Shown: positions 2,265 to 36,150 of the stretch, piece by piece | Layout: each line of letters starts with the position of its first letter | How positions within the stretch are numbered: the first letter of the stretch is position 1 | NCBI GenBank assembly: GCA_900323505.1 | Contig: OOIN01000006.1 | Coordinates: 1,426,001-1,490,000, forward strand | Reading direction: 5' to 3' | From: Ustilago trichophora | Lineage: Eukaryota; Basidiomycota; Ustilaginomycetes; Ustilaginales; Ustilaginaceae | Length of the DNA: 64,000 nucleotides | Program-made: the position numbers and the translations under genes | Notes under the pieces: generated by a model | The model's input: the letters and a program-made list of their open reading frames with translations, nothing else | Databases searched by the model: none | Told to the model about the DNA's origin: nothing

Positions 2265-4661
2265 ATGGCTTTCCTCCACTCGGCCAACTTCGATCCTTCT
2301 CCGAGGCGCACCATCTCCTCATCTAGGAGCCATCACCGCCAATGCCAACTCGATGATTACCTCATCGATCGACTTGACAACACCGAAGTGTTGGGTGGCG
2401 AGGACAGCTCGGGTCTGCACATCGGCCATATCGGTTGCGTCAATGCTCTCAGTTGGTCTCCCTCGGGACAACTCCTTGCGAGTGGCAGCGACGATCGCAA
2501 CGTCATCCTGTGGAAACTAGGCTCCCCTCATACCCATCCTCTTACACATCCATCACAGCCCATCCGCAGTCGAACCTCGGCCTCTTCTCGATACGCCATT
2601 GGAGCCTCTCGCCGCGCGCGCGAGCAGCCCACTCAGACAAGCACATCACACGACACAGACTCTCTTCCATCTGAATCAGCACATGGCCTCGAACATCAAG
2701 ACGACGACATCGTACAGCCATGGCCGCAACGCTCTTTTCCAAAGATGGAGCTCGGCATGCTTGGCAACATTGAGACGGGTCATCGCGCCAACATCTTCTC
2801 TGTCAAGTGGGCGCCCAACGCCTCAGAGCGTCGCCTCTTCACCTGTGCAGGTGACTCGCATGTCCGCGTTTTCGACATCAATTACATGTCCTCTAGTACG
2901 GGCGAGGGTGCAGACGGACAAGTGCATCGCAGTCATTCAGGCAGCGAGTGGCACAATTGGTCAGAGCACAGTGGTGCCTGCATTCGCCTCTTTCGCTGCC
3001 ACCGTGGCAGAGCAAAGCGCATCTCAACCGAAGTCTCGCCCGATGTCTTCCTTACTTGTGGCGAGGACGGCGATGTTCGCCAGATGGATCTTCGTGTACC
3101 CCACACTTGCCGCACTCGCACCGGTGGCTCGTGTCCACCGCCCCTTGCTCACTACCCATCCGTCCTCTACTCGCTTTCTGTGAGCAAGCTCGAACCTTGG
3201 CTCTTTGCCGTAGCCGGAGAATCTTCTCTGGCTTACCTGCACGACCGAAGGATGATCCCACGTCTCATCAAGCGCGAATGGGGCATGTCCACAGATGCCC
3301 AACATGACGCTCTTACCATGTGCGTGCGCAGTTTTGGCGTGCCTCCTGGAGGCTTTGATGCGCCTTGGGCAGACAACGACGGACGCACCGCTCTACGCAG
3401 TGAAGAATCACCGTCTTCGCGCCGTCGTCTTTTCATGGGTAACCGCAACAGCATCACAGCATGCAAACTCAGCGAACACAACGGCAGAGACTTGCTTGTG
3501 TCGTACTCCTCTGGCCACATTTACCGCTTCGACATCTATGATGAGCCAGGTGTCCTGCACGCCAATCTCGACAATGTTCGGTTCTCTTTGGATACAGACC
3601 AACGCTCTCAGTCACCAGAAGGAGAAGCAGCTGCTACAGAAGCCGTTGACAAACCCAAGGCACGTGACAATAACGATATCGAGATGGGTGATGGCAAGAG
3701 TCGCGGAGGACGGGAAGGAAACGAGGATGAAAACGTCGTCATCTCTGGCTCTGACGCTGATGACGCAGGCACAGCTGGCGAGAATGACGATGGACGGAAT
3801 GTCGATGTTGAAGACAGTGAGCATGAAGGAAGCAGTGACTATGAAAATGAGGAAGAAGAAGACGAAGAGCAAGAGCAAGAGCATTTGGACGAGGATGAAG
3901 ATGAAAATGATAATGAAAACGAAGATGAAGATGAAAATGATAATGAAAACGAAGATGAAGATGAAGATGAAGATGAGGACGCGAGCGACGACGATCGCGA
4001 CGACGATGATGCTGGCGACATGTCAGAAGAAGATTTGATGCACCTTCTCCAGCAAGAAGCGGGTTTGCGATCCACCTCCCCAGCAGAGCCCGTCGTACCC
4101 ACCGTCTACCCCCGCTCAGCATACAAGGGTCACTGCAACAAGGAGACCGTCAAGGATGTCGCATTCGCAGGCGGTGATGACGAGTATGTCATTTCTGGCT
4201 CTGATGACGGCAACTGGTTCATGTGGGACAAGCTCACCTCCGAAATCAAAGGCATCTGGCACGGAGACTCGAGTGTCGTCAACGTCATGGCCATGCATCC
4301 TGACTTGCCCGTCTTTGCCATCTCGGGCATCGACGACACCATCAAGATCTTTGCACCTATCTCCATCACCCCTTTCCCACCGCCAGCAGCAGACCAAGAT
4401 GAGGGCGCGGAAGCTAGTTCGACAGAAAGTCGGAGGAGGAGACCACGCTTAGGCAGAGACGACGCCATCCGTGCGCACAAGCTCACCGATCGTCTACCAG
4501 ACAAGGACGACATTTGTCAACGAAACGAACGTCAGCTTCAAAGAGATTCTCTCGTCACGCCAGCAGCGAGCATCCTCTGGCGTCTTCATCCACGCTTGCT
4601 TGGCATTGATGTGGACGATGATCCCGACCGTCAGGCCGAAGGTGATTGTATTGTCATGTAA
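2265..4661 (+). CDS. DCAF6/DCAF8-like WD40 protein (CUL4-DDB1 substrate receptor)
   Basis: An intact 798-residue WD40 protein. N-terminal repeats are clear: GCVNALSWSPSGQLLASGSD near residues 57-80, then GHRANIFSVKWAPN, CHRGRAKRISTEVSPD and LTCGEDGDVRQMDLR. A long insert follows, including a strongly acidic stretch (about 526-595) of Asp/Glu/Asn runs. WD repeats resume near 620 with YKGHCNKETVKDVAF, YVISGSDDGNWFMWD and AISGIDDTIKIFAP. The order of an N-terminal propeller half, an acidic insert and a C-terminal half is what I know from the DCAF6/DCAF8 (WDR42/NRIP) families, which link substrates to CUL4-DDB1 ubiquitin ligase. The WDR call is firm. The DCAF assignment rests on the repeat wording and layout. 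Other WD40 scaffolds are possible. Confidence 0.75.
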   Translation: MAFLHSANFDPSPRRTISSSRSHHRQCQLDDYLIDRLDNTEVLGGEDSSGLHIGHIGCVNALSWSPSGQLLASGSDDRNVILWKLGSPHTHPLTHPSQPIRSRTSASSRYAIGASRRAREQPTQTSTSHDTDSLPSESAHGLEHQDDDIVQPWPQRSFPKMELGMLGNIETGHRANIFSVKWAPNASERRLFTCAGDSHVRVFDINYMSSSTGEGADGQVHRSHSGSEWHNWSEHSGACIRLFRCHRGRAKRISTEVSPDVFLTCGEDGDVRQMDLRVPHTCRTRTGGSCPPPLAHYPSVLYSLSVSKLEPWLFAVAGESSLAYLHDRRMIPRLIKREWGMSTDAQHDALTMCVRSFGVPPGGFDAPWADNDGRTALRSEESPSSRRRLFMGNRNSITACKLSEHNGRDLLVSYSSGHIYRFDIYDEPGVLHANLDNVRFSLDTDQRSQSPEGEAAATEAVDKPKARDNNDIEMGDGKSRGGREGNEDENVVISGSDADDAGTAGENDDGRNVDVEDSEHEGSSDYENEEEEDEEQEQEHLDEDEDENDNENEDEDENDNENEDEDEDEDEDASDDDRDDDDAGDMSEEDLMHLLQQEAGLRSTSPAEPVVPTVYPRSAYKGHCNKETVKDVAFAGGDDEYVISGSDDGNWFMWDKLTSEIKGIWHGDSSVVNVMAMHPDLPVFAISGIDDTIKIFAPISITPFPPPAADQDEGAEASSTESRRRRPRLGRDDAIRAHKLTDRLPDKDDICQRNERQLQRDSLVTPAASILWRLHPRLLGIDVDDDPDRQAEGDCIVM

Positions 4662-4752: not shown

Positions 4753-7326
4753 TCAGTTGGCAAGGATGGAAGTGAGATTGAGCTGGTTCTCCTCGGCAAT
4801 GGACTCTTGCATGAACGAGTTCAACTTCGACCAAACCTCGTCTTCTTTTCTTCCGTCGTCGATGATGAAAGCGGGAATGTGTCCAAACGCAGCTTCCACC
4901 TGCGCCACTTGGCCCTGTGCAAAAGTCTGGTTCGTCCAGATGTGGCGGTATTTGGCACCTTGCTGTTGAGTATACTTGAGCTTCGGCAGGGTCACCGTCA
5001 CATTTTGCTGTCCCAAGTTGATTCCATCTTCCGCATCGTAGATGGGCGCCACAAACAATTTATCACCCAGGAAGAAGGTCCAGTTTCCACTTTGATCTTG
5101 AGCCCCGCTCTGCTGTGCGTCTGCATACAGTTCCGTTGGGCGGACCAGCGGCCATCCATTGGCATAGTATTCTTCCATTAGCACCTTGCGGTAAGCCGCT
5201 AGAGCGACGAACAGTCTTGTGTTATGTCGATGATATGCCCAAGTATCGTCATCCGAATAAGCCTGCTTGTTAACGCTTGGGATATTGCCCTCGTGCGTTC
5301 GGAATACTGCCGAGGTAAAAGCGCCAACTTCACCCCATCTACCCAACAACGCTTTGGAGCGAGTAATGTTGAAGTTGGTAGAAAGCGTATTGGTATATCC
5401 GCCAATGTCCGAGTGCGAGATGCCAAATCCAGAAAACCCCATGTGGATTGTGGATGGAATGACAGATCGGAGGCCATCGTGACGGGAGAAATCGATATTC
5501 TGATCGCCAACCCAGAAGAGGTTGGTGTGCGGGGCGGAGAAGGTAGATGCGGAGCGATGGAAGCCAACGATTTCCGAGGTTCGATTCAGGTCTTGGCTGA
5601 CTTCGTAGAGGAGTTGGGCCCAGGATGTTGGGTATTGGTTGTGAAAGTTGATGGGTTTGGATGCGTCGTCATCGCCGACGAGATCGAGTTCTGAGGAGGA
5701 GATGTTGCCAGATGAGGAAATGTAGACGTCGGAAGCGGTGGATAGATACTCTCCAAAGTCTTGCATTGCCCCCGAGATGTTTGCCGAGAAGATCTGTTCC
5801 TTGACCAGCTGCTTGAACCAGCTTCGAGTGGTCTCATTGGACAGATCCAACAGTCCCGCATCGATCCCTGGACCACTGGTGATCGTCCATGGCACTCTTT
5901 CCTCCCCGTTTGATTCTTCCAATACAGTCCTGTTCAGCACAAACCTGCCCCCTTCCACCGCCTCCTTGTACAGATTCCTTTTGAAGCCGGTCGGTTTGGC
6001 AGAAACATTGGCCAGGAAAGTATTGACGTAACTCAAAGTGCGTACGCCATACGAAGCGTTGAGGTGGGTCACCCAGTCTCCCCATGTCGGGTAGAGCTTC
6101 TGGTCGGGTTCCCAGTTCCACCACAGTCGCGAGAGGGGGATGTCGTACGCTCCGGGTTGCAGACGAGTACCGCACCAGTCTTGGAGCCACACAGCGGCAA
6201 GGGGAAGACGCTGGAGGGAGGTAGCGTTACGGATGATGGATTCTACTTTGGTTTGACCACCTTGGATGCCTAGGATGGATCCGGTTTGAGTCCATGTGGG
6301 AAGGCGGGGCTGGCGACCAGTGTGGTTGGTGAGGGAAGTGATGGCCGAGAGGAGGGGTGGAACGTCATTGGATTCTGTGTGGGCAAGGCCGAGGTCGAGG
6401 GTGACGGTGGGAGCGTCGTAGGTGATCGTCACAAACCCGGTCTCAGAAGAGGGGATCTTAGGAAGATCCGAAGCCGGGACAGGAGACTTGGAGGTATCGC
6501 TGAAACTGGTGCCAAAGTTGCCACTGTCCAAGTCAACAATGACAAGACGAGGTCCACGAATGACGCCCCATCGCCCCTCCGTTGTCGTCCACGAACCGAT
6601 CGCTGTATACGTCGTGAGCTCCGACCCACCGGCAAAAGTACCCGAGATGCTGCCATTCCCATTCAGATACCCCGTCACGGGTTCGTCGCCACGTCCTACA
6701 CCGCCTTCACGGGTCCAGATGGGTACTCGTGCTCCCCTTAGCCCCATGAAGCTTGGTTGCGATCCCAGGCCCCAGAACTGTTCTTTCGAGGTGGAGGCGT
6801 ATCTCAGGCTAACCGACTTGACTTTCTCTCCAGTACCTTGAGGAGAGTTGATGGTGGCAGAGAGACGCACAGCCTCTCCTGAGATGGTGGAGATGACGAG
6901 TCTCCACTCTGTCTCGCAGGCCTCGGAGCTGAGCTTGCCGCTGAGGACAGCACGAGCGTCAGAGACCTTGTCAAGGCTTTGGAGCGACTGTGTTGCGTTT
7001 ATACCACCACAGATGAAGGTGCTCGAGTCAGTAGCATTAGTAATGAGCTCAAAGTTTCCCGAAGAGTCAGAGATGACAGGAGTGCCGGTGGAGGCGATGA
7101 GGAAGGTTGGAGGGGTTCGGAGGATCGTCTCGTTGTGTTGGGTCGGGTTCGTGATAGTCAGTCCTGCGGAAGAGTTGTAGTCGATGGTGATGCCGTTGCT
7201 GAGAGTGAGTGAGGTAGGTTCTGAGCGTATGAGGGGTAGCTGAGCTGCCAAGGTTGCCGCGGCGAAGCATGCCAGGGCCAGCATAGACAGCATAGCTAGC
7301 CCTGCCGGTTTGAAGAGAGGCGACAT
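4753..7326 (-). CDS. Secreted GH31 glycosidase, predicted sulfoquinovosidase
   Basis: 857 residues from the chosen Met, which begins a good signal peptide (hydrophobic core 9-28). A longer reading frame to 7542 would bury that signal. GH31 landmarks: LQDWCG (381-386), nucleophile Asp523 in MQDFGEYL, acid/base Asp608 in WVGDQN, and HSDIGGY (638-644). The sulfonate-binding set known from Escherichia coli YihQ appears complete: Gln355 in GIQGG, Gln382 in LQDW, Arg400 and Trp403 in SRLWWNW, and Tyr644. The acid/base-to-Tyr spacing is 36 residues, as in YihQ. The predicted reaction is hydrolysis of sulfoquinovosides to sulfoquinovose outside the cell. Many N-glycosylation sequons fit secretion. 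No sulfoquinovose catabolic genes are nearby. GH31 is firm; the specificity is a strong inference from residues recalled from memory. Confidence 0.85.
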   Translation of the reverse strand: MSPLFKPAGLAMLSMLALACFAAATLAAQLPLIRSEPTSLTLSNGITIDYNSSAGLTITNPTQHNETILRTPPTFLIASTGTPVISDSSGNFELITNATDSSTFICGGINATQSLQSLDKVSDARAVLSGKLSSEACETEWRLVISTISGEAVRLSATINSPQGTGEKVKSVSLRYASTSKEQFWGLGSQPSFMGLRGARVPIWTREGGVGRGDEPVTGYLNGNGSISGTFAGGSELTTYTAIGSWTTTEGRWGVIRGPRLVIVDLDSGNFGTSFSDTSKSPVPASDLPKIPSSETGFVTITYDAPTVTLDLGLAHTESNDVPPLLSAITSLTNHTGRQPRLPTWTQTGSILGIQGGQTKVESIIRNATSLQRLPLAAVWLQDWCGTRLQPGAYDIPLSRLWWNWEPDQKLYPTWGDWVTHLNASYGVRTLSYVNTFLANVSAKPTGFKRNLYKEAVEGGRFVLNRTVLEESNGEERVPWTITSGPGIDAGLLDLSNETTRSWFKQLVKEQIFSANISGAMQDFGEYLSTASDVYISSSGNISSSELDLVGDDDASKPINFHNQYPTSWAQLLYEVSQDLNRTSEIVGFHRSASTFSAPHTNLFWVGDQNIDFSRHDGLRSVIPSTIHMGFSGFGISHSDIGGYTNTLSTNFNITRSKALLGRWGEVGAFTSAVFRTHEGNIPSVNKQAYSDDDTWAYHRHNTRLFVALAAYRKVLMEEYYANGWPLVRPTELYADAQQSGAQDQSGNWTFFLGDKLFVAPIYDAEDGINLGQQNVTVTLPKLKYTQQQGAKYRHIWTNQTFAQGQVAQVEAAFGHIPAFIIDDGRKEDEVWSKLNSFMQESIAEENQLNLTSILAN

Positions 7327-8236: not shown

Positions 8237-9307
8237 TTAGATCAAGTTGTAGATTCTGTAAAGCGGGAATTGGGTCCTACCACCGTGAGCACCCTCTCCA
8301 AAGTAAGCACCACCGCCGTAGATCTCCTGCTGTCCGTTAAAGTTGGCCTCGGTGACGACGGTGAGCGAGTTGCTCTTAAATTCATCCCTGGTCGAGCTGG
8401 TGACAGTTGCAGAGCGCCATCTGTCGTTCGACTGGAACCTGTATGCGTTGGGTGCTTTGGTGCCAAAGAGATTGCTCTTGCCGTTAACTCGGATGGCGTG
8501 GAGCTTCTCGGTACCATCGAGACCTCCAAAGTTTGCTCCGGAGAGTCGGACGGGGATGGCGGTTGGGTTGGGGCTGTTCAGGTCGAAGGCGGTGAGTGGT
8601 CGAGGGCCGCCAAAGGCGACGAGGACGTTGTCTTCGGGGATGTAGGCTACTCCTGTGTATCCTGGGCGCTGGCTGCCGTTGGCTGCTTCCGAGAACCAAG
8701 GGGTGATGGTGCGGCCGTCAGGAGAGACTTTGGCAATGGCTGGGATGCCAAGTGCAAAGACGACATACGAGTTGTCCTGAGAATCTTGGGCAGAGGCAAC
8801 AGGTCCAAAAGGGATCCTTCCCGTCCTCTGCTGGAACTGGCTCTGGACGCCATTAAGACTCACACTCCATGCCGGGGCGCTGTTGGCATTTGCGGGAAGA
8901 TTGAAGCGATGGAACGAGTCGGGACCGTCCTGACTCTGTCCCGGACCAAATCTGAAAGCAGCAGAATTTTTGGCGACTGCAAAAAGTTTATCCCCCGCAT
9001 TGTTGATCGAGAGACCTGCCATCTGCTGCTCGCCGTTGCCATCGCTTGAAACGCCAGGAATGAGAAGGTTGAAGTGAGAATTGTCGTTGACATTCCAGAC
9101 TGAAATGCGGCCTTTCCACAGGTTGGACTGGTAAAAGAGGTTGCGGGCTTTGTCAAAGATGGTGTCCTCGGGGTAGAGGTTTTTGACGTTGATGTTGTAG
9201 ACGTCGGGGATGGGAGCTCTGGATTGGATGGGGACAGGGAGGGCACTGATGCAGGTCGAAGAGACCGCTGCCAGCGCAAGAGCCGCTGCAGTGATGCTCA
9301 GCCTCAT
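8237..9307 (-). CDS. Secreted TRI14-like protein, predicted beta-propeller
   Basis: 356 residues from the Met that starts a signal peptide (MRLSITAAALALAAVSSTC, cleavage near 21-23). The longer in-frame start at 9499 would hide it. The mature part has short repeating strand motifs such as NLYPEDTIFDKARNLFYQSN, KGRISVWNVND, IPGVSSDGNGEQQMAGLS and TGVAYIPEDNVLVAFGG. This wording matches my memory of the TRI14 family, first described in Fusarium trichothecene clusters as dispensable for toxin synthesis in culture but contributing to plant infection. Such proteins look like SMP-30-type six-bladed propellers. No other trichothecene-type genes are present, so this is not a toxin cluster. Its neighbour in the same orientation is the secreted GH31 enzyme, 910 bp away. 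The assignment is moderately sure; the activity is unknown. Confidence 0.65.
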   Translation of the reverse strand: MRLSITAAALALAAVSSTCISALPVPIQSRAPIPDVYNINVKNLYPEDTIFDKARNLFYQSNLWKGRISVWNVNDNSHFNLLIPGVSSDGNGEQQMAGLSINNAGDKLFAVAKNSAAFRFGPGQSQDGPDSFHRFNLPANANSAPAWSVSLNGVQSQFQQRTGRIPFGPVASAQDSQDNSYVVFALGIPAIAKVSPDGRTITPWFSEAANGSQRPGYTGVAYIPEDNVLVAFGGPRPLTAFDLNSPNPTAIPVRLSGANFGGLDGTEKLHAIRVNGKSNLFGTKAPNAYRFQSNDRWRSATVTSSTRDEFKSNSLTVVTEANFNGQQEIYGGGAYFGEGAHGGRTQFPLYRIYNLI

Positions 9308-10567
9308 TTTGCGCGAAGACGTGGACGCTACGAAGCACTGAAGGTGTGAAAAAGTTGCTCTCGGGCTGCAATTGAATGAGTCGGTGCTGGGTGCGAACGA
9401 GCGTGATGAGAATGAGAACAGGAGATTGGGGATGGAAGATGGAAAGGGGAGGGTAGGGAATGAGGAGGGGAGAGTTGAATTTGGCAAGAAGGGAAGCACG
9501 ACGAAACCACCAAGTACTTTTATGGAAGCCGCACACTTAGCACAGCAGCACCTGTCTTGGGGGAGTGGATTCTGTACTTCTTAGGGGGAAAGCAAAAGAC
9601 AGACGTCCCCGCTGTTCCCCAAGGGAAAAAGCGGGCCACAGTCTTGTTGCCGTGTCTGAGCTAGAATGTCAAGCGACGTCTACGGTGCGTGGCGTCGAGG
9701 GGCTCACTTCCATCTTCTGTTGTAGCCCAGAAGGTCGAGGGTGGTCAACCTTGAAGGTGTTGTTCTATTTTGACCGGCTTGGTTTCGGAGTTGACATGAA
9801 TCAAGAGCGGCAGGGACGGAATGCTGCCTGTAGGTGGAAGGCTTGCCGCCTGGCGCGTGTGCGAGGATCGACAGCCGATCAAACAAAAGTAACACCATAC
9901 ATACACGAAAGCGCACCGTACTTGCCGCAAGATATGCTTCACGAGCACACCAGAGACGTGTGAATGCAGGTGACATGTCTCGACGAACGAGAATTTAAAG
10001 GAATAAATAAATAAATAAAATAAATAAAGTGACAGCTGTCGCTCTGACCTGGCACGTCCCTCACAGCTCCAAGCTCAGCGCGATTTTGATGCCATACGAG
10101 GAGTTTGGGAAGGGCGCGGAATGCAAACACAACACCCAGCCAAGCAGTTTGATCATGGTATCGGCCTGTCTCGTCCTTCCGTTGGTGCCAAGGGATCGTC
10201 TCTTTAGTGATGTTATGGAGCCGTGATCAAACATTGCAATACAGCGGACTCCCGTTGAGTTAGAGCTACTGTAGTCACCATGAGCTTGGGCTTAGTTGTG
10301 TTCGTACTCGAACTCGCCAAAACCCGGATACAACAGAGAAGCGAGCTACGAGCTTCAATACGCCGAATCTGTCGACCCTGACAGTCAAGTGAGAAAGTCC
10401 GGTGCGACACGCCGTTGCAATCTTCATGAACCGAGATCCGGAGGAGAGCGGAAGAAGGTTCTGTTTCAACTGCAGGACATGGTATTTCCGTCCGCGTGTC
10501 AGCCCGTACGCATGGCGTAACCCCCAAATGTAAACCAGAGAAAAGCCTAGCATTACAACACATCTGT
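9308..10567. other. Intergenic stretch upstream of the TRI14-like gene
   Basis: About 1.26 kb with no supported gene. It should hold the promoter of the TRI14-like gene (pyrimidine-rich on the minus strand next to the ATG) and the 3' flank of DCC1. An AAAT-type microsatellite occupies about 10002-10030 and TACTGTA occurs at 10267-10273. Confidence 0.5.
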
Positions 10568-23470: not shown

Positions 23471-25684
23471 CTAATCCTGCCTCTTCTCCTTGCCAATCTC
23501 TTCAAACGCCTTCTTCCAGTCGGCCAGGTCCATCTTGAGCTGTCTCATCTGAAGAGGCTTTGTAAACCAGGCATCCATCCCGCACTCCAATCCTCTCTGC
23601 TGGTGGAATCGATCGGATAACGCTGTCACTGCCACAATCCTGAACCTCGACCTGTCCCCCTCTGCTTCGCCGAGTGCGTCAGTCACATGCTTGCGCATCA
23701 GCTGGCACGCTTCGAAACCCATCATTCCGGGCATGTTGATATCCAACAAAGTCACGGCGGGCAGATGCTTCTTGAACTTCTCGACCGCCTCAACGCCATC
23801 GACGGCTTCGTGGAACTCGATCTTGCTCTGGCGAAGCATGGTGGTGAGGATGCGCATGTTGAGCGGGTTGTCTTCGCAGCAGAGAACGCTGAATTTAGGT
23901 TTCTTGTGCGATGAGGGTGGATCAAGGGGAGGCGGAGTCGAGTTGTCGGTCGAGACCGGTGGTGTGATCGACGGTGGGCTTGGAGGTGGCTGGATGCGCG
24001 GTTTCGGTCGGGGTGCACGAAGCACTTCGTCCATGGCATCGGGCGACACAACCAAGTCAGCCAGCTTATCGCCGCTCGGGAGGGAGGATCCTCGATCGCG
24101 ATTCTCCTGTTCCTGTTCGCCAACGAGCGACATTCTACGCGGGGTGAGGTCTTTGGTCTCTTCTTTTTGCGCCGCATCTTCCGAGGACTGTGCGAGCTCG
24201 GCACGCTCGGCGAGAGGTGTACCTGACCCCTCTGACAGCACCTCACCCGGCTTGTCTGGGTTGACTGGAGCCGTATAGCCCAAATGCCCGTGCTTCTGTC
24301 TCACCGTCTCGTTCGCCGTTCTTGTGTCTTCGCTGCCCTCTTGCTCAGCAAGTCGCAACAAATTCGCAAAACATCTTGGCCCAAACGGCTTCCTCGTCAC
24401 GAAAGTCGGTCTCCTGCTGCCGTTCTTGAAGGCCGCATATTCGATCCCTGCATCTTCGTGCGCCTGCAACACGCCGATCTTGACACCTGGTTTGGTTTGT
24501 GCGAGGATTGCGTCCACTCCACCCTCGACTTCGGCGCACACTTCTTCCGGAAGTAGTAAAAAGTCGGCGTCCTGAATGTGCGATGTGCAGTAGAGATTGC
24601 CAAAGGTGGCGAGTTGAGCAGAAATGACTTGGGCAAGACGCTGCAGACCGGGACCTTCAAAGCCGTAGAGATACATGAGTTGGTCGGATTTTGAAGGTGG
24701 TGCTGGGGTCACGAAGCGTTCGGGAAGGCTCTGTACGGGGATCTTGACCGTGACAATAGTGCCACGGCCTTTGTCGCTCGAGACGTGCATGGCGCCACCC
24801 ATGCGACGGACGATGGTGGAGCAGAGGGTGACCGAGAGACCGGCGCCTGCTTTGAAGTTGTCTGCTTTGACAAAAGGTTCGAATAGGCGATGGGAGAGAA
24901 AGTGCTCGGTCATGCCCTCGCCCGAGTCCTCGACGACGAGGTCGACAAAATGTTGGTCGGACTGCGTTGGCGATGCGGATGGAGGAAAAGAAACATCGTC
25001 TTCGAATGCGGGTGAAGTGGCTACTGATGGAGACAGCGAGACTTCGACGAAGCCTTCTGTAGTGAAGCGGAGTGCGTTGGAGATGAGCTTGTGCGCGAGT
25101 TTTCGAACTAGCTTTGTCGAGACGACCGTCTTCCATCCTCGCAGACTGGTATCTGTCTGCAAGATGAGCTCTGGCGGTGGTGGCAGTCTTGCATCGTCAC
25201 CATCCTCGGCTCGGATCTGGCGCACCTGTGCATTCCACGCCTCAGACGCAACTGTATCTAACAAATCACCTAGATCGACGGGCTCCTCGGGGAACACTTC
25301 ATGCTCCTCCTCGGCCTCCCTTGCATGTATCGTTTCGGCAGCAAAGTCTCGAAAGTCATCCAAGACATTTTGCAGCCTCTCGCTCAATCCGGCAAGACTC
25401 TCCATCTTGATGAGAAGCGATCTCCGAGCAGCCTTGTCCTGTATTGGTGCTGCTCGCAGCTCTGTACGCAGATCCTCGACCAGACCGAGAAGGCCGTGGA
25501 CGGGTGTACGCAGCTCATGCTGAACCTGCTGGATGAGCTGGATGTGCGCTTGGTCGACTGCGGCGCTCATAGTATGCGGAGAGACCTGTTCGCCAAGTTC
25601 GCCCTGGGAATGCTTGAGTGCGGCTTGGTTGGGATCGTTGAGACGCTGCGAGAAAGGCGCCCGTTGCGCGGCAGCCATGCTCAA
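23471..25684 (-). CDS. Hybrid histidine kinase without a visible sensor domain
   Basis: 737 residues. The kinase core starts close to the N-terminus: the H box HELRTPV with phospho-accepting His56, the N box KLISNALRFT, the G1 box EDSGEGM and the G2 region GAGLSVTLCSTIVRRMGGAM. A linker of about 250 residues leads to a receiver domain (about 602-720) with the acidic pair CCEDNPLNM, phospho-acceptor Asp648 in LLDINMPG, Thr687 in VTAL and Lys709 in FTKPL. It should pass phosphate from His56 to Asp648 and on to a histidine phosphotransfer protein such as Ypd1, in stress or development signalling. There is no transmembrane segment, PAS, GAF or HAMP-type region before the H box, so it looks cytosolic, or a 5' exon is missing. 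Met39 is an alternative start. Confidence 0.88.
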   Translation of the reverse strand: MSMAAAQRAPFSQRLNDPNQAALKHSQGELGEQVSPHTMSAAVDQAHIQLIQQVQHELRTPVHGLLGLVEDLRTELRAAPIQDKAARRSLLIKMESLAGLSERLQNVLDDFRDFAAETIHAREAEEEHEVFPEEPVDLGDLLDTVASEAWNAQVRQIRAEDGDDARLPPPPELILQTDTSLRGWKTVVSTKLVRKLAHKLISNALRFTTEGFVEVSLSPSVATSPAFEDDVSFPPSASPTQSDQHFVDLVVEDSGEGMTEHFLSHRLFEPFVKADNFKAGAGLSVTLCSTIVRRMGGAMHVSSDKGRGTIVTVKIPVQSLPERFVTPAPPSKSDQLMYLYGFEGPGLQRLAQVISAQLATFGNLYCTSHIQDADFLLLPEEVCAEVEGGVDAILAQTKPGVKIGVLQAHEDAGIEYAAFKNGSRRPTFVTRKPFGPRCFANLLRLAEQEGSEDTRTANETVRQKHGHLGYTAPVNPDKPGEVLSEGSGTPLAERAELAQSSEDAAQKEETKDLTPRRMSLVGEQEQENRDRGSSLPSGDKLADLVVSPDAMDEVLRAPRPKPRIQPPPSPPSITPPVSTDNSTPPPLDPPSSHKKPKFSVLCCEDNPLNMRILTTMLRQSKIEFHEAVDGVEAVEKFKKHLPAVTLLDINMPGMMGFEACQLMRKHVTDALGEAEGDRSRFRIVAVTALSDRFHQQRGLECGMDAWFTKPLQMRQLKMDLADWKKAFEEIGKEKRQD

Positions 25685-34374: not shown

Positions 34375-36150
34375 TTAGTAGACATGAGCGTATTTGGAAT
34401 GTCTCCTGAGCACGTGTCCGTACCTCTGCAGACCCCACAGAGGTACAATGAGCACACAAAAGATGGCGCCCAGCACGCTGCATCCAATGCCGACGCCGAG
34501 GTTCTTGAACATGCCGTGTCCGAACAGCGGGAAGGCAGCTGCGATGGTCGACCTAATCAAATCATTGGCTGCGAGCACCGACGCTGCGTACTTGGGGTAC
34601 GACATAGGAAGGTAGACAAGGAGGCTCTGGAAGAGGAGGAAGACGCCGGGCTGCAAGAATGCGGAAAAGATGATGGGAACGATCCAGTGGATGTCTTCCC
34701 TGCTCGTCCAGCCAAAGCCAAAGAGCGAGACAGGGACGAAGAACGATGCGAAGAGCGCGATGCTGAGCCTGTCTTCGGGGATGATGATTCCCCTTGCTTC
34801 CTTCTCCAGGAATCGAGGATTGAAGTAACTTTTCAGGTACCAAAGGTATCCAATCAACGTCACCACGCCCGAGACGGCGAGACCGAGGAAAGGAAGACCC
34901 GACTCGCCGAGGTTGAAATGGTGCATCTCGGTAAAGACGATGGGGAAAGACTCGAAGAAGAGATAGAAGCAGGCGTAGGCGATACCGAGGTAGAGCGAGG
35001 TGAAGAAGACGACCGGTTCAAGCGAGATGGTGAGCGGGCGCAAGAGAGCCTCCTTGGTAAGGGCAGCGACGGTGGTGGCCTGCTGGTCGAGTTCGCTCTG
35101 GGCGCGAAGGTTGGGATTGCCAGTGAGGTGACGGAGACGCTTGGCGCGCTGGAGAAGAATATAGCCTTCAAACGTCTCGGGAAGGAAGAGGGCCAAAACG
35201 ATGGTGGTGGCACCGGACAGGATGGTGAGGAGCCACATGGGCCATCTCCAGCCAAGGTTCATTGCGGAGAAGCCACCGAGAATGGGGCCAAGGACGGGAC
35301 CGCAGACCGCACCAACTGCCCAAACAGCGATGGGGAACGCCACTCCAACACCCTCATACATATCGGCGATGCTGGCTCCGCCCGTTGCCAGTGCGGGAGA
35401 CCCAAAGAAACCTGTCCAGAATCGCATGGCCATGAGCGTGTTATAGTTGGGCGCGATGGAAGCGACGACATTGAAGATGACAAAGACGACCATGCTCGGA
35501 ATGTAGGTCCAATTTCTTCCCACCGCTGGCAACTCGCTAAGCGGCGATAGTACGAGTGGGCCTACTGCATAACCTAGAATGAAGAGTGAGAGACCGAGGG
35601 TGGCTTTGGTGAGGCCGACGTTGAACTCGTCCATGACACCTGGGATAGATGGCGTGTAGATGGCCGAGCCTGAGTAGACGCCGAAGGTGAGCAAGCCAAT
35701 GAGGAACGTGACAAATGCTTTCTTTTTGGAGGACCAGTTGCGAGGGTTCTCCGGATCCGAGTCGCTATACCATTCGACGATGATGTGATTGTCTTGACTG
35801 TCCGTCGAGGACTTTTCTATGGAGAGTTGGCCGCGAGCCTGACTGACGACACGGGCGACAGTGTTTGTGCCTTGTGCTTGTGATAAAGCGAGTTCGACAT
35901 CGACGCCGTCAATGTTGTGGAGTGGAGTGTTGTCATCGAGCTTCTTCTTGAAGCCCTGGTCGCACAGTGTTGCCGTCTCCGAGTTGAAGTTGGTCTTTGC
36001 TAACGTCGATGCTGCTGAAGATGAGGGTGCGGACGACAGCTGAGCAGGGAGAACAAAATCGGACCGTTGCTCCGGGCGAGGAAAGATGCTGCCATTCGAG
36101 ATTTGGTTGAGAAGAGTGCCCACCCACGCTGATGCGATGGCGGAGGTCAT
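34375..36150 (-). CDS. MFS transporter, drug:H+ antiporter (DHA1) type
   Basis: 591 residues: an N-terminal cytosolic region of about 140 residues, then about 12 predicted membrane segments. The lead-in WYSDSDPENPRNWSSKKK is typical of fungal DHA1 pumps. The antiporter motif C appears as AVGAVCGPVLGPILGG, and LPETFEGYILLQRAKRLR ends the first half. Such proteins export drugs, fungicides, polyamines or plant defence compounds in exchange for protons at the plasma membrane. Substrate cannot be told from sequence. A canonical TATAAA lies on the minus strand at 36310-36315, about 160 bp upstream of the ATG, which suggests inducible expression. No biosynthetic cluster surrounds it. Confidence 0.93.
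   Translation of the reverse strand: MTSAIASAWVGTLLNQISNGSIFPRPEQRSDFVLPAQLSSAPSSSAASTLAKTNFNSETATLCDQGFKKKLDDNTPLHNIDGVDVELALSQAQGTNTVARVVSQARGQLSIEKSSTDSQDNHIIVEWYSDSDPENPRNWSSKKKAFVTFLIGLLTFGVYSGSAIYTPSIPGVMDEFNVGLTKATLGLSLFILGYAVGPLVLSPLSELPAVGRNWTYIPSMVVFVIFNVVASIAPNYNTLMAMRFWTGFFGSPALATGGASIADMYEGVGVAFPIAVWAVGAVCGPVLGPILGGFSAMNLGWRWPMWLLTILSGATTIVLALFLPETFEGYILLQRAKRLRHLTGNPNLRAQSELDQQATTVAALTKEALLRPLTISLEPVVFFTSLYLGIAYACFYLFFESFPIVFTEMHHFNLGESGLPFLGLAVSGVVTLIGYLWYLKSYFNPRFLEKEARGIIIPEDRLSIALFASFFVPVSLFGFGWTSREDIHWIVPIIFSAFLQPGVFLLFQSLLVYLPMSYPKYAASVLAANDLIRSTIAAAFPLFGHGMFKNLGVGIGCSVLGAIFCVLIVPLWGLQRYGHVLRRHSKYAHVY

Follow-up and report, generated by a model that had tools for sequence, protein, structure and literature searches.

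A predicted extracellular GH31 sulfoquinovosidase of the smut fungus Ustilago trichophora and its relatives in fungi and oomycetes

The closest described enzymes to the protein considered here are the GH31 sulfoquinovosidases YihQ of Escherichia coli, the A. tumefaciens enzyme, SftG of E. rectale and BmSQase, to which it is 27-29% identical. The protein is encoded in 64,000 nucleotides of the smut fungus Ustilago trichophora (positions 1426001-1490000 of contig OOIN01000006.1, here C6, in assembly GCA_900323505.1), hereafter called the window, and is predicted to be a secreted sulfoquinovosidase. It differs from the YihQ-type enzymes in its length (857 versus 678 amino acids), in a signal-like N-terminus and many glycosylation sequons, and in belonging to a separate clade. 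The GH188 sulfoquinovosidases, expected to perform the same reaction and reported to include eukaryotic sequences, use an oxidoreductive mechanism with nicotinamide adenine dinucleotide (NAD+) and form a family apart from GH31 (PMC10755693); the Ustilago protein has instead the profile and barrel of GH31, an assignment judged without a GH188 model. The alpha-xylosidase YicI of E. coli and the GH31 alpha-glucosidases share with it the GH31 barrel and the catalytic Asp pair.

Sulfoquinovose is produced at about 10 billion tons per year (PMC12890257 and PMC10755693). According to a 2026 review, the known pathways for its degradation are all bacterial, with none characterised in eukaryotes or archaea (PMC12890257); a 2022 review states that degradation has been seen in plants and algae, the eukaryotic enzymes being still unidentified (PMC9594981). 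For three bacterial enzymes, kcat/KM values of 1.1e5 to 6.4e5 per M per s on sulfoquinovosides have been tabulated (PMC11968277), and an aziridine probe of the sulfoquinovose type has been described (PMC12312396). An assay is therefore worthwhile. No characterised fungal or oomycete sulfoquinovosidase was found in the partly accessible open-access literature, and the available portion of PMC13219744 contained no match for the motif or for fungi. Public records already give the name 'Sulfoquinovosidase' to several fungal and oomycete relatives and call some relatives alpha-glucosidase, and the annotation in itself is therefore not new. If active, the enzyme would be the first defined entry step into sulfoquinovose breakdown for fungi and oomycetes, would make their share in plant sulfur turnover testable, and would help to show how sulfonate recognition is gained and lost among GH31 glycosidases.

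Enzyme class, residue register and predicted secretion

The frame starts with the ATG at 7326 and ends with the stop at 4755-4753 of the minus strand, and its translation contains no internal stops. Its features, in window coordinates, are the following (residue equivalences from the alignment).

4753..7326, minus strand: complete coding sequence, GH31 sulfoquinovosidase-like; 857 amino acids plus stop in a single uninterrupted frame; PF01055; top matches are sulfoquinovosidases of the PDB
7243..7326, minus strand: signal-like N-terminus, residues 1-28, with putative cleavage after A28; from sequence, hydropathy and low predicted local distance difference test (pLDDT) scores
6262..6264, minus strand: Q355, equivalent of YihQ Q262
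6181..6183, minus strand: Q382, equivalent of YihQ Q288
6127..6129, minus strand: R400, equivalent of YihQ R301, presumably a sulfonate contact; Arg in 57 of 58 matches labelled eukaryotic
6118..6120, minus strand: W403, equivalent of YihQ W304, presumably a sulfonate contact
5758..5760, minus strand: D523, aligned with D405, the catalytic nucleophile of YihQ
5503..5505, minus strand: D608, aligned with D472, the catalytic acid/base of YihQ
5395..5397, minus strand: Y644, equivalent of YihQ Y508; this position is Phe in YicI and the remaining GH31 loci of the genome

The alignment brought together the protein, its 105 homologues, the remaining GH31 loci of the Ustilago genome and, taken from the genome of E. 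coli K-12, YihQ and YicI. Residues Q262, Q288, R301, W304, D405, D472 and Y508 of YihQ fall in register with Q355, Q382, R400, W403, D523, D608 and Y644, in agreement with an earlier note on this DNA that had named both the catalytic pair and the five-residue sulfonate set; the sulfonate-binding roles of Q262, Q288, R301, W304 and Y508 come from structural work on YihQ. The 36 residues that the same note had counted between D608 and Y644 also separate D472 from Y508, and the R-x-x-W spacing is that of YihQ, with a 5-residue insertion ahead of R400. As had been claimed for ordinary GH31 enzymes, the set is missing in YicI and in all eight further GH31 loci taken from this genome.

The GH31 barrel model of Pfam, PF01055, is matched well above its cut-off (95.6 versus 23.5 bits, E 4.8e-27). 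In a phmmer search, six distinct sulfoquinovosidase sequences, mutant constructs included, gave E values of 3.5e-76 to 2.2e-60, whereas the remaining eight GH31 matches reached only 2.1e-13 or worse; given this gap, the match is not due to chance. The predicted fold is likewise nearer to the solved sulfoquinovosidases than to other GH31 enzymes. A position among alpha-glucosidases or xylosidases with the residues out of register, an outcome that the earlier note had named as fatal to its proposal, was not found by alignment, fold or tree.

A second copy of the gene is present on contig C7, with 88.8% identity over the aligned nucleotides and 90.6% at the residue level. Nonsynonymous over synonymous divergence (dN/dS) of the pair is 0.052/0.393 (NG86) or 0.055/0.327 (YN00), and therefore both copies are maintained under constraint: there is selection to keep the gene.

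The N-terminus is hydrophobic (best 10-residue mean hydropathy 2.38, versus 1.31 for YihQ), and pLDDT is below 50 in residues 1-16 and 18-32 of the predicted structure. Such a hydrophobic stretch with low model confidence is as expected of a cleaved signal, which supports the signal peptide noted earlier as a putative one; the cleavage site after A28 is our own reading of the sequence. The protein contains 19 N-glycosylation sequons, versus a mean of 8.1 in shuffles of the same protein, and is probably N-glycosylated. Its secretion is thus plausible. Among the best 80 prokaryotic loci (see below), a hydrophobic N-terminus was scored in 0/25 of the YihQ clade and in 35/55 of the others, by a crude hydropathy test in which each bacterial frame was begun at the first Met that follows a stop, so that some starts may be wrong.

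We therefore regard the assignment to the sulfoquinovosidase class as well supported for a predicted activity, and put at roughly 0.77 the probability that the gene codes for a secreted, probably N-glycosylated, retaining GH31 alpha-sulfoquinovosidase that probably acts on deacylated sulfolipid. Plant sulfolipid stripped by lipases would yield sulfoquinovosyl glycerol, the most likely substrate. D523 would attack C1 of the alpha-sulfoquinovoside, with D608 as acid/base, while R400 and W403, aided by Q355, Q382 and Y644, would grip the C6 sulfonate and shut out ordinary glucosides. Alpha-sulfoquinovose would be freed outside the cell, and its C-S bond could be cleaved later, e.g. by a dioxygenase of the TauD type whose gene lies at another place in the genome.

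Relationship to YihQ and the arginine/glutamine position

Several observations weigh against the sulfoquinovosidase reading. The Pfam C-terminal domain PF21365 falls just under its cut-off (24.3 versus 24.4 bits), and the NCBIfam model PRK10426, the YihQ equivalog, gives 430 bits against a cut-off of 553. A hydrophobic N-terminus is present in only 34 of the 67 full-length proteins among homologues P0002-P0082. No sulfoquinovose-pathway gene was recognised nearby, another difference from the described GH31 sulfoquinovosidases; Pfam was applied to 20 of the 63 open frames listed for the window, a scan that spliced genes could escape. Finally, the protein falls outside the YihQ clade: in the trees described below the eukaryotic clade is apart from the 18-row YihQ side (support 100/100 under a mixture model, 98.9/100 under LG+F+G4), and the remaining 38 rows outside both clades have Gln in place of the sulfonate Arg in 31 cases and Arg in 7. 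The class proposed in the earlier note thus holds by sequence, fold, register and conservation, with the qualification that the protein is neither in the YihQ clade nor above the equivalog cut-off, and that its relatives outside that clade are mostly of the Gln type. It should work like a GH31 sulfoquinovosidase, yet one outside the YihQ clade and equivalog.

It should be noted that PRK10426 is also missed by P0002 (433 bits; labelled Ustilago trichophora) and by the Phytophthora protein P0013 (471), and is passed by P0079 (655), P0037 (557) and the Gln-type Deinococcus protein P0098 (604). Since P0098 passes and the Arg-bearing Ustilago protein fails, the cut-off does not track the arginine.

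Prokaryotic genomes were scanned with search patterns built from the query alignment, and the best 80 of at least 569 relatives were kept; the Arg:Gln ratio of 35:45 in the Arg301 column of these loci is for both reasons no census. The Gln-type set is broad, bacterial and archaeal (L015-L052 and others). These QQQWY relatives, mainly bacterial (Chloroflexota, Spirochaetota, Rubrobacter, some Pseudomonas, Haloferax), mostly share the non-Arg residues of the set with the Ustilago protein and lie on its side of all three trees, but have Gln instead of its Arg. In the first tree, which held 35 of the 106 query and homologue rows and had long branches, 38 of the 45 Gln loci were on the eukaryotic side and seven near YihQ or outside, with L060, L065, L079, L080, L093 and L094 as Gln rows on the YihQ side.

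A more careful mixture-model tree used 72 of 120 rows, and those dropped include the outgroup and three aberrant rows, P0105, P0106 and L051; the five motif columns were excluded both here and from the LG+F+G4 tree of the same rows. The 16 eukaryotic rows form one clade in both trees (100/99 and 99.3/100, respectively), and the YihQ side consists of 14 Arg and four Gln rows. In the mixture-model tree the eukaryotes are nested among the 38 rows, beside the Arg-bearing L030, L035 and L043 (90/80), whereas in the LG+F+G4 tree they are outside them, between these rows and the YihQ side, the 38-row clade being weak (62.8/42). An approximately unbiased (AU) test did not reject the union of eukaryotes and the whole YihQ side (34 rows) against the 38 (p 0.591), an arrangement with a log-likelihood 5.5 units better than that of the mixture-model tree. 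An apparent rejection of the union of eukaryotes and YihQ (p 5e-68) is unreliable and was set aside: the group constrained there consisted of the eukaryotes and 14 YihQ-type rows, and lacked the four rows with Gln that belong to the YihQ side.

When the trees are rooted on the deep branch, a Gln root costs 6 and an Arg root 7 by parsimony on the mixture-model tree, as compared with 8 and 7 on the LG+F+G4 tree; at the base of the eukaryotes and the 38-row side, the mixture-model tree favours Gln (4 versus 6 changes). Because the placements conflict and the AU test does not reject the union, the trees decide neither the nesting nor a separate gain of Arg: the eukaryotic Arg may be an inheritance that the Gln-type bacteria have lost, or it may have been gained separately.

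This bears on the strongest alternative, an exo-alpha-glycosidase of GH31 that acts on a different sugar whose C6 group is charged or bulky, e.g. a 6-sulfated or otherwise acidic alpha-glucoside, in which Arg was gained within a mainly bacterial Gln stock and the likeness to YihQ is convergent. The predominance of Gln outside the YihQ clade, the nesting of the eukaryotes and the parsimony count in the mixture-model tree, and the score below the PRK10426 cut-off are all as it would predict. However, the union with the YihQ side is not rejected by the AU test and has the better likelihood, the eukaryotic clade lies apart from the 38 rows in the LG+F+G4 tree, where parsimony slightly favours an ancestral Arg, all five residues match YihQ, and the fold is far closer to sulfoquinovosidases than to other GH31 enzymes; we are aware, moreover, of no further GH31 substrate of this kind. 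We consider this alternative unlikely.

The conservation of the set points the same way as the sulfoquinovosidase reading. The full QQRWY set is present in 55 of the 58 matches labelled eukaryotic; another two are gapped in one column, and P0105, from a protist collection, reads EQ-WY. Whichever history of the Arg applies, its retention in 57/58 alongside the other residues of the set argues for a substrate anionic at C6, for which sulfoquinovosides are, to our knowledge, the natural choice. To the best of our knowledge, the Gln-type GH31 enzymes have neither an assigned function nor a characterised member. If they also cut sulfoquinovosides, Arg would be one of two solutions; if they do not, Arg would mark specificity.

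Gene neighbourhoods were compared as well. Permeases aside, a YihU-like dehydrogenase is the sole E. coli yih gene type beside L029, L044, L046, L049 of Pseudomonas nitroreducens, L079, L080 and L093, all outside the YihQ clade; YihO/YihP-like permeases occur beside L060, L065, L079, L080 and L093. Within the YihQ clade the full yih gene set was found at L087 only, and the neighbour test is therefore low-powered. Clustering by shared neighbours was blurred by antisense frames, and Pfam gave no common theme among ten neighbours of four loci. In Evansella vedderi (L052:10501-15425), the Gln-type GH31 gene lies upstream of genes for a BadF-type kinase, a NamZ muramidase, an SIS-domain (etherase-like) protein and a solute-binding protein, a set resembling peptidoglycan sugar recovery.

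Distribution and role in eukaryotes

The labelled relatives belong to Violaceomyces, Botryosphaeria, Lasiodiplodia, Phyllosticta, Cercospora, Fulvia, Penicillium, Aspergillus, Phycomyces and Umbelopsis, as well as to Quaeritorhiza, Zopfochytrium and many Phytophthora. Proteins of Ustilago maydis and Sporisorium are absent from the labelled matches, although orthologues in these smuts should rank near the top; P0003 and P0004 (67-70% identical) are without an organism label. The absence is a hint of uneven occurrence among smuts, as judged from the homologue listing rather than from a genome survey.

Phytophthora proteins (P0013, P0021 and others) lie inside the fungal clade next to Botryosphaeria, with P0013 and P0007 joined at 100/99, which suggests transfer of the gene between fungi and oomycetes. 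The protein P0006 of Quaeritorhiza haematococci, a chytrid, is near the smut and dothideomycete enzymes and apart from P0086, also from a chytrid; either transfer or contamination may account for this. Two record oddities are probably annotation errors: P0031 (Phytophthora ramorum) has ABC-transporter domains joined on the same 1289-residue model, and P0078 (Purpureocillium lavendulum) is recorded as 'aromatic prenyltransferase'.

It is conceivable, but doubtful, that fungi and oomycetes own a deep extracellular sulfoquinovosidase lineage apart from YihQ, passed among unrelated eukaryotes living on photosynthetic tissue, which would open a eukaryotic route of sulfolipid breakdown with possible TauD-type sulfur release; in it, Arg may have been re-introduced into a mostly-Gln stock.

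The earlier note had proposed that the fungus may feed on thylakoid sulfolipid, or modify it, through the enzyme. A true sulfoquinovosidase might also serve not for feeding but to alter host thylakoid lipid or to free sulfur during colonisation, a role that would be in keeping with the enzyme class. The labelled relatives include several plant pathogens and one parasite of an alga, and the N-terminus is signal-like; yet the gene also occurs in Penicillium, Aspergillus and Phycomyces, mostly saprotrophs, and we find this role quite unlikely. In a study of tomato infected with Phytophthora infestans, one sulfolipid ion went down and another up, which supports neither side (PMC6320815). That the protein is a plain secreted GH31 alpha-glucosidase or alpha-xylosidase, as the naming of some relatives and a Pfam result of GH31 only would allow, is highly improbable, considering that those enzymes rank far below sulfoquinovosidases by sequence and fold, and that the residue set is missing from YicI and the eight further GH31 loci of the genome, in which Phe occupies the Y644 position.

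Candidate later steps, genome duplication and neighbouring genes

A bacterial sulfoquinovose dioxygenase is an iron- and 2-oxoglutarate-dependent enzyme (PMC12890257), and a TauD-type enzyme is therefore possible, if unproven, as the second step. Genome-wide, the TauD family has seven matching places, which look like three pairs plus a single match containing in-frame stops, and the luciferase family has one pair. One TauD copy matches TauD/AtsK-type structures, and one luciferase copy matches the NtaA/DmoA subfamily rather than alkanesulfonate monooxygenase. None of these candidates is on C6 or C7, so that a link to the GH31 gene is a guess. The unpaired TauD match, at C12:39870-40697 on the minus strand, has three in-frame stops and may be a decayed copy or an intron-bearing gene.

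Most gene families examined occur as apparent copy pairs in this assembly of 38.8 Mb: four GH31 pairs plus two single places, three TauD pairs plus one single, and one luciferase pair, on contigs C6/C7, C28/C34, C19/C24, C3/C5, C27/C21 and C16/C15. Identity was measured for two pairs, the GH31 gene and a HIR1-like gene, whose C7 copy is 94% identical by nucleotide. The genome of U. trichophora RK089 is reported to be 20.7 Mb (PMC4966473); given this difference in size and the paired copies, the assembly looks as if two diverged genomes were combined in it, as in a hybrid or a diploid.

The Pfam scan of the window covered the large likely genes as unspliced frames, and 7 of the 20 matched no Pfam family. 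A major facilitator superfamily (MFS) protein at 34375-36150 is most like multidrug-efflux models, all below their cut-offs. The next large frame upstream of the GH31 gene (8237-9499, minus strand) codes for a Mala s 1-like protein (PF22701, E 1.9e-70), and the frame at 23471-25684 (minus strand) for a histidine kinase in which ATPase and response regulator domains were matched. In a WD40 protein gene, positions 3840-4030 contain an acidic low-complexity stretch of GAT/GAA repeats, which by eye is shorter in the C7 copy.
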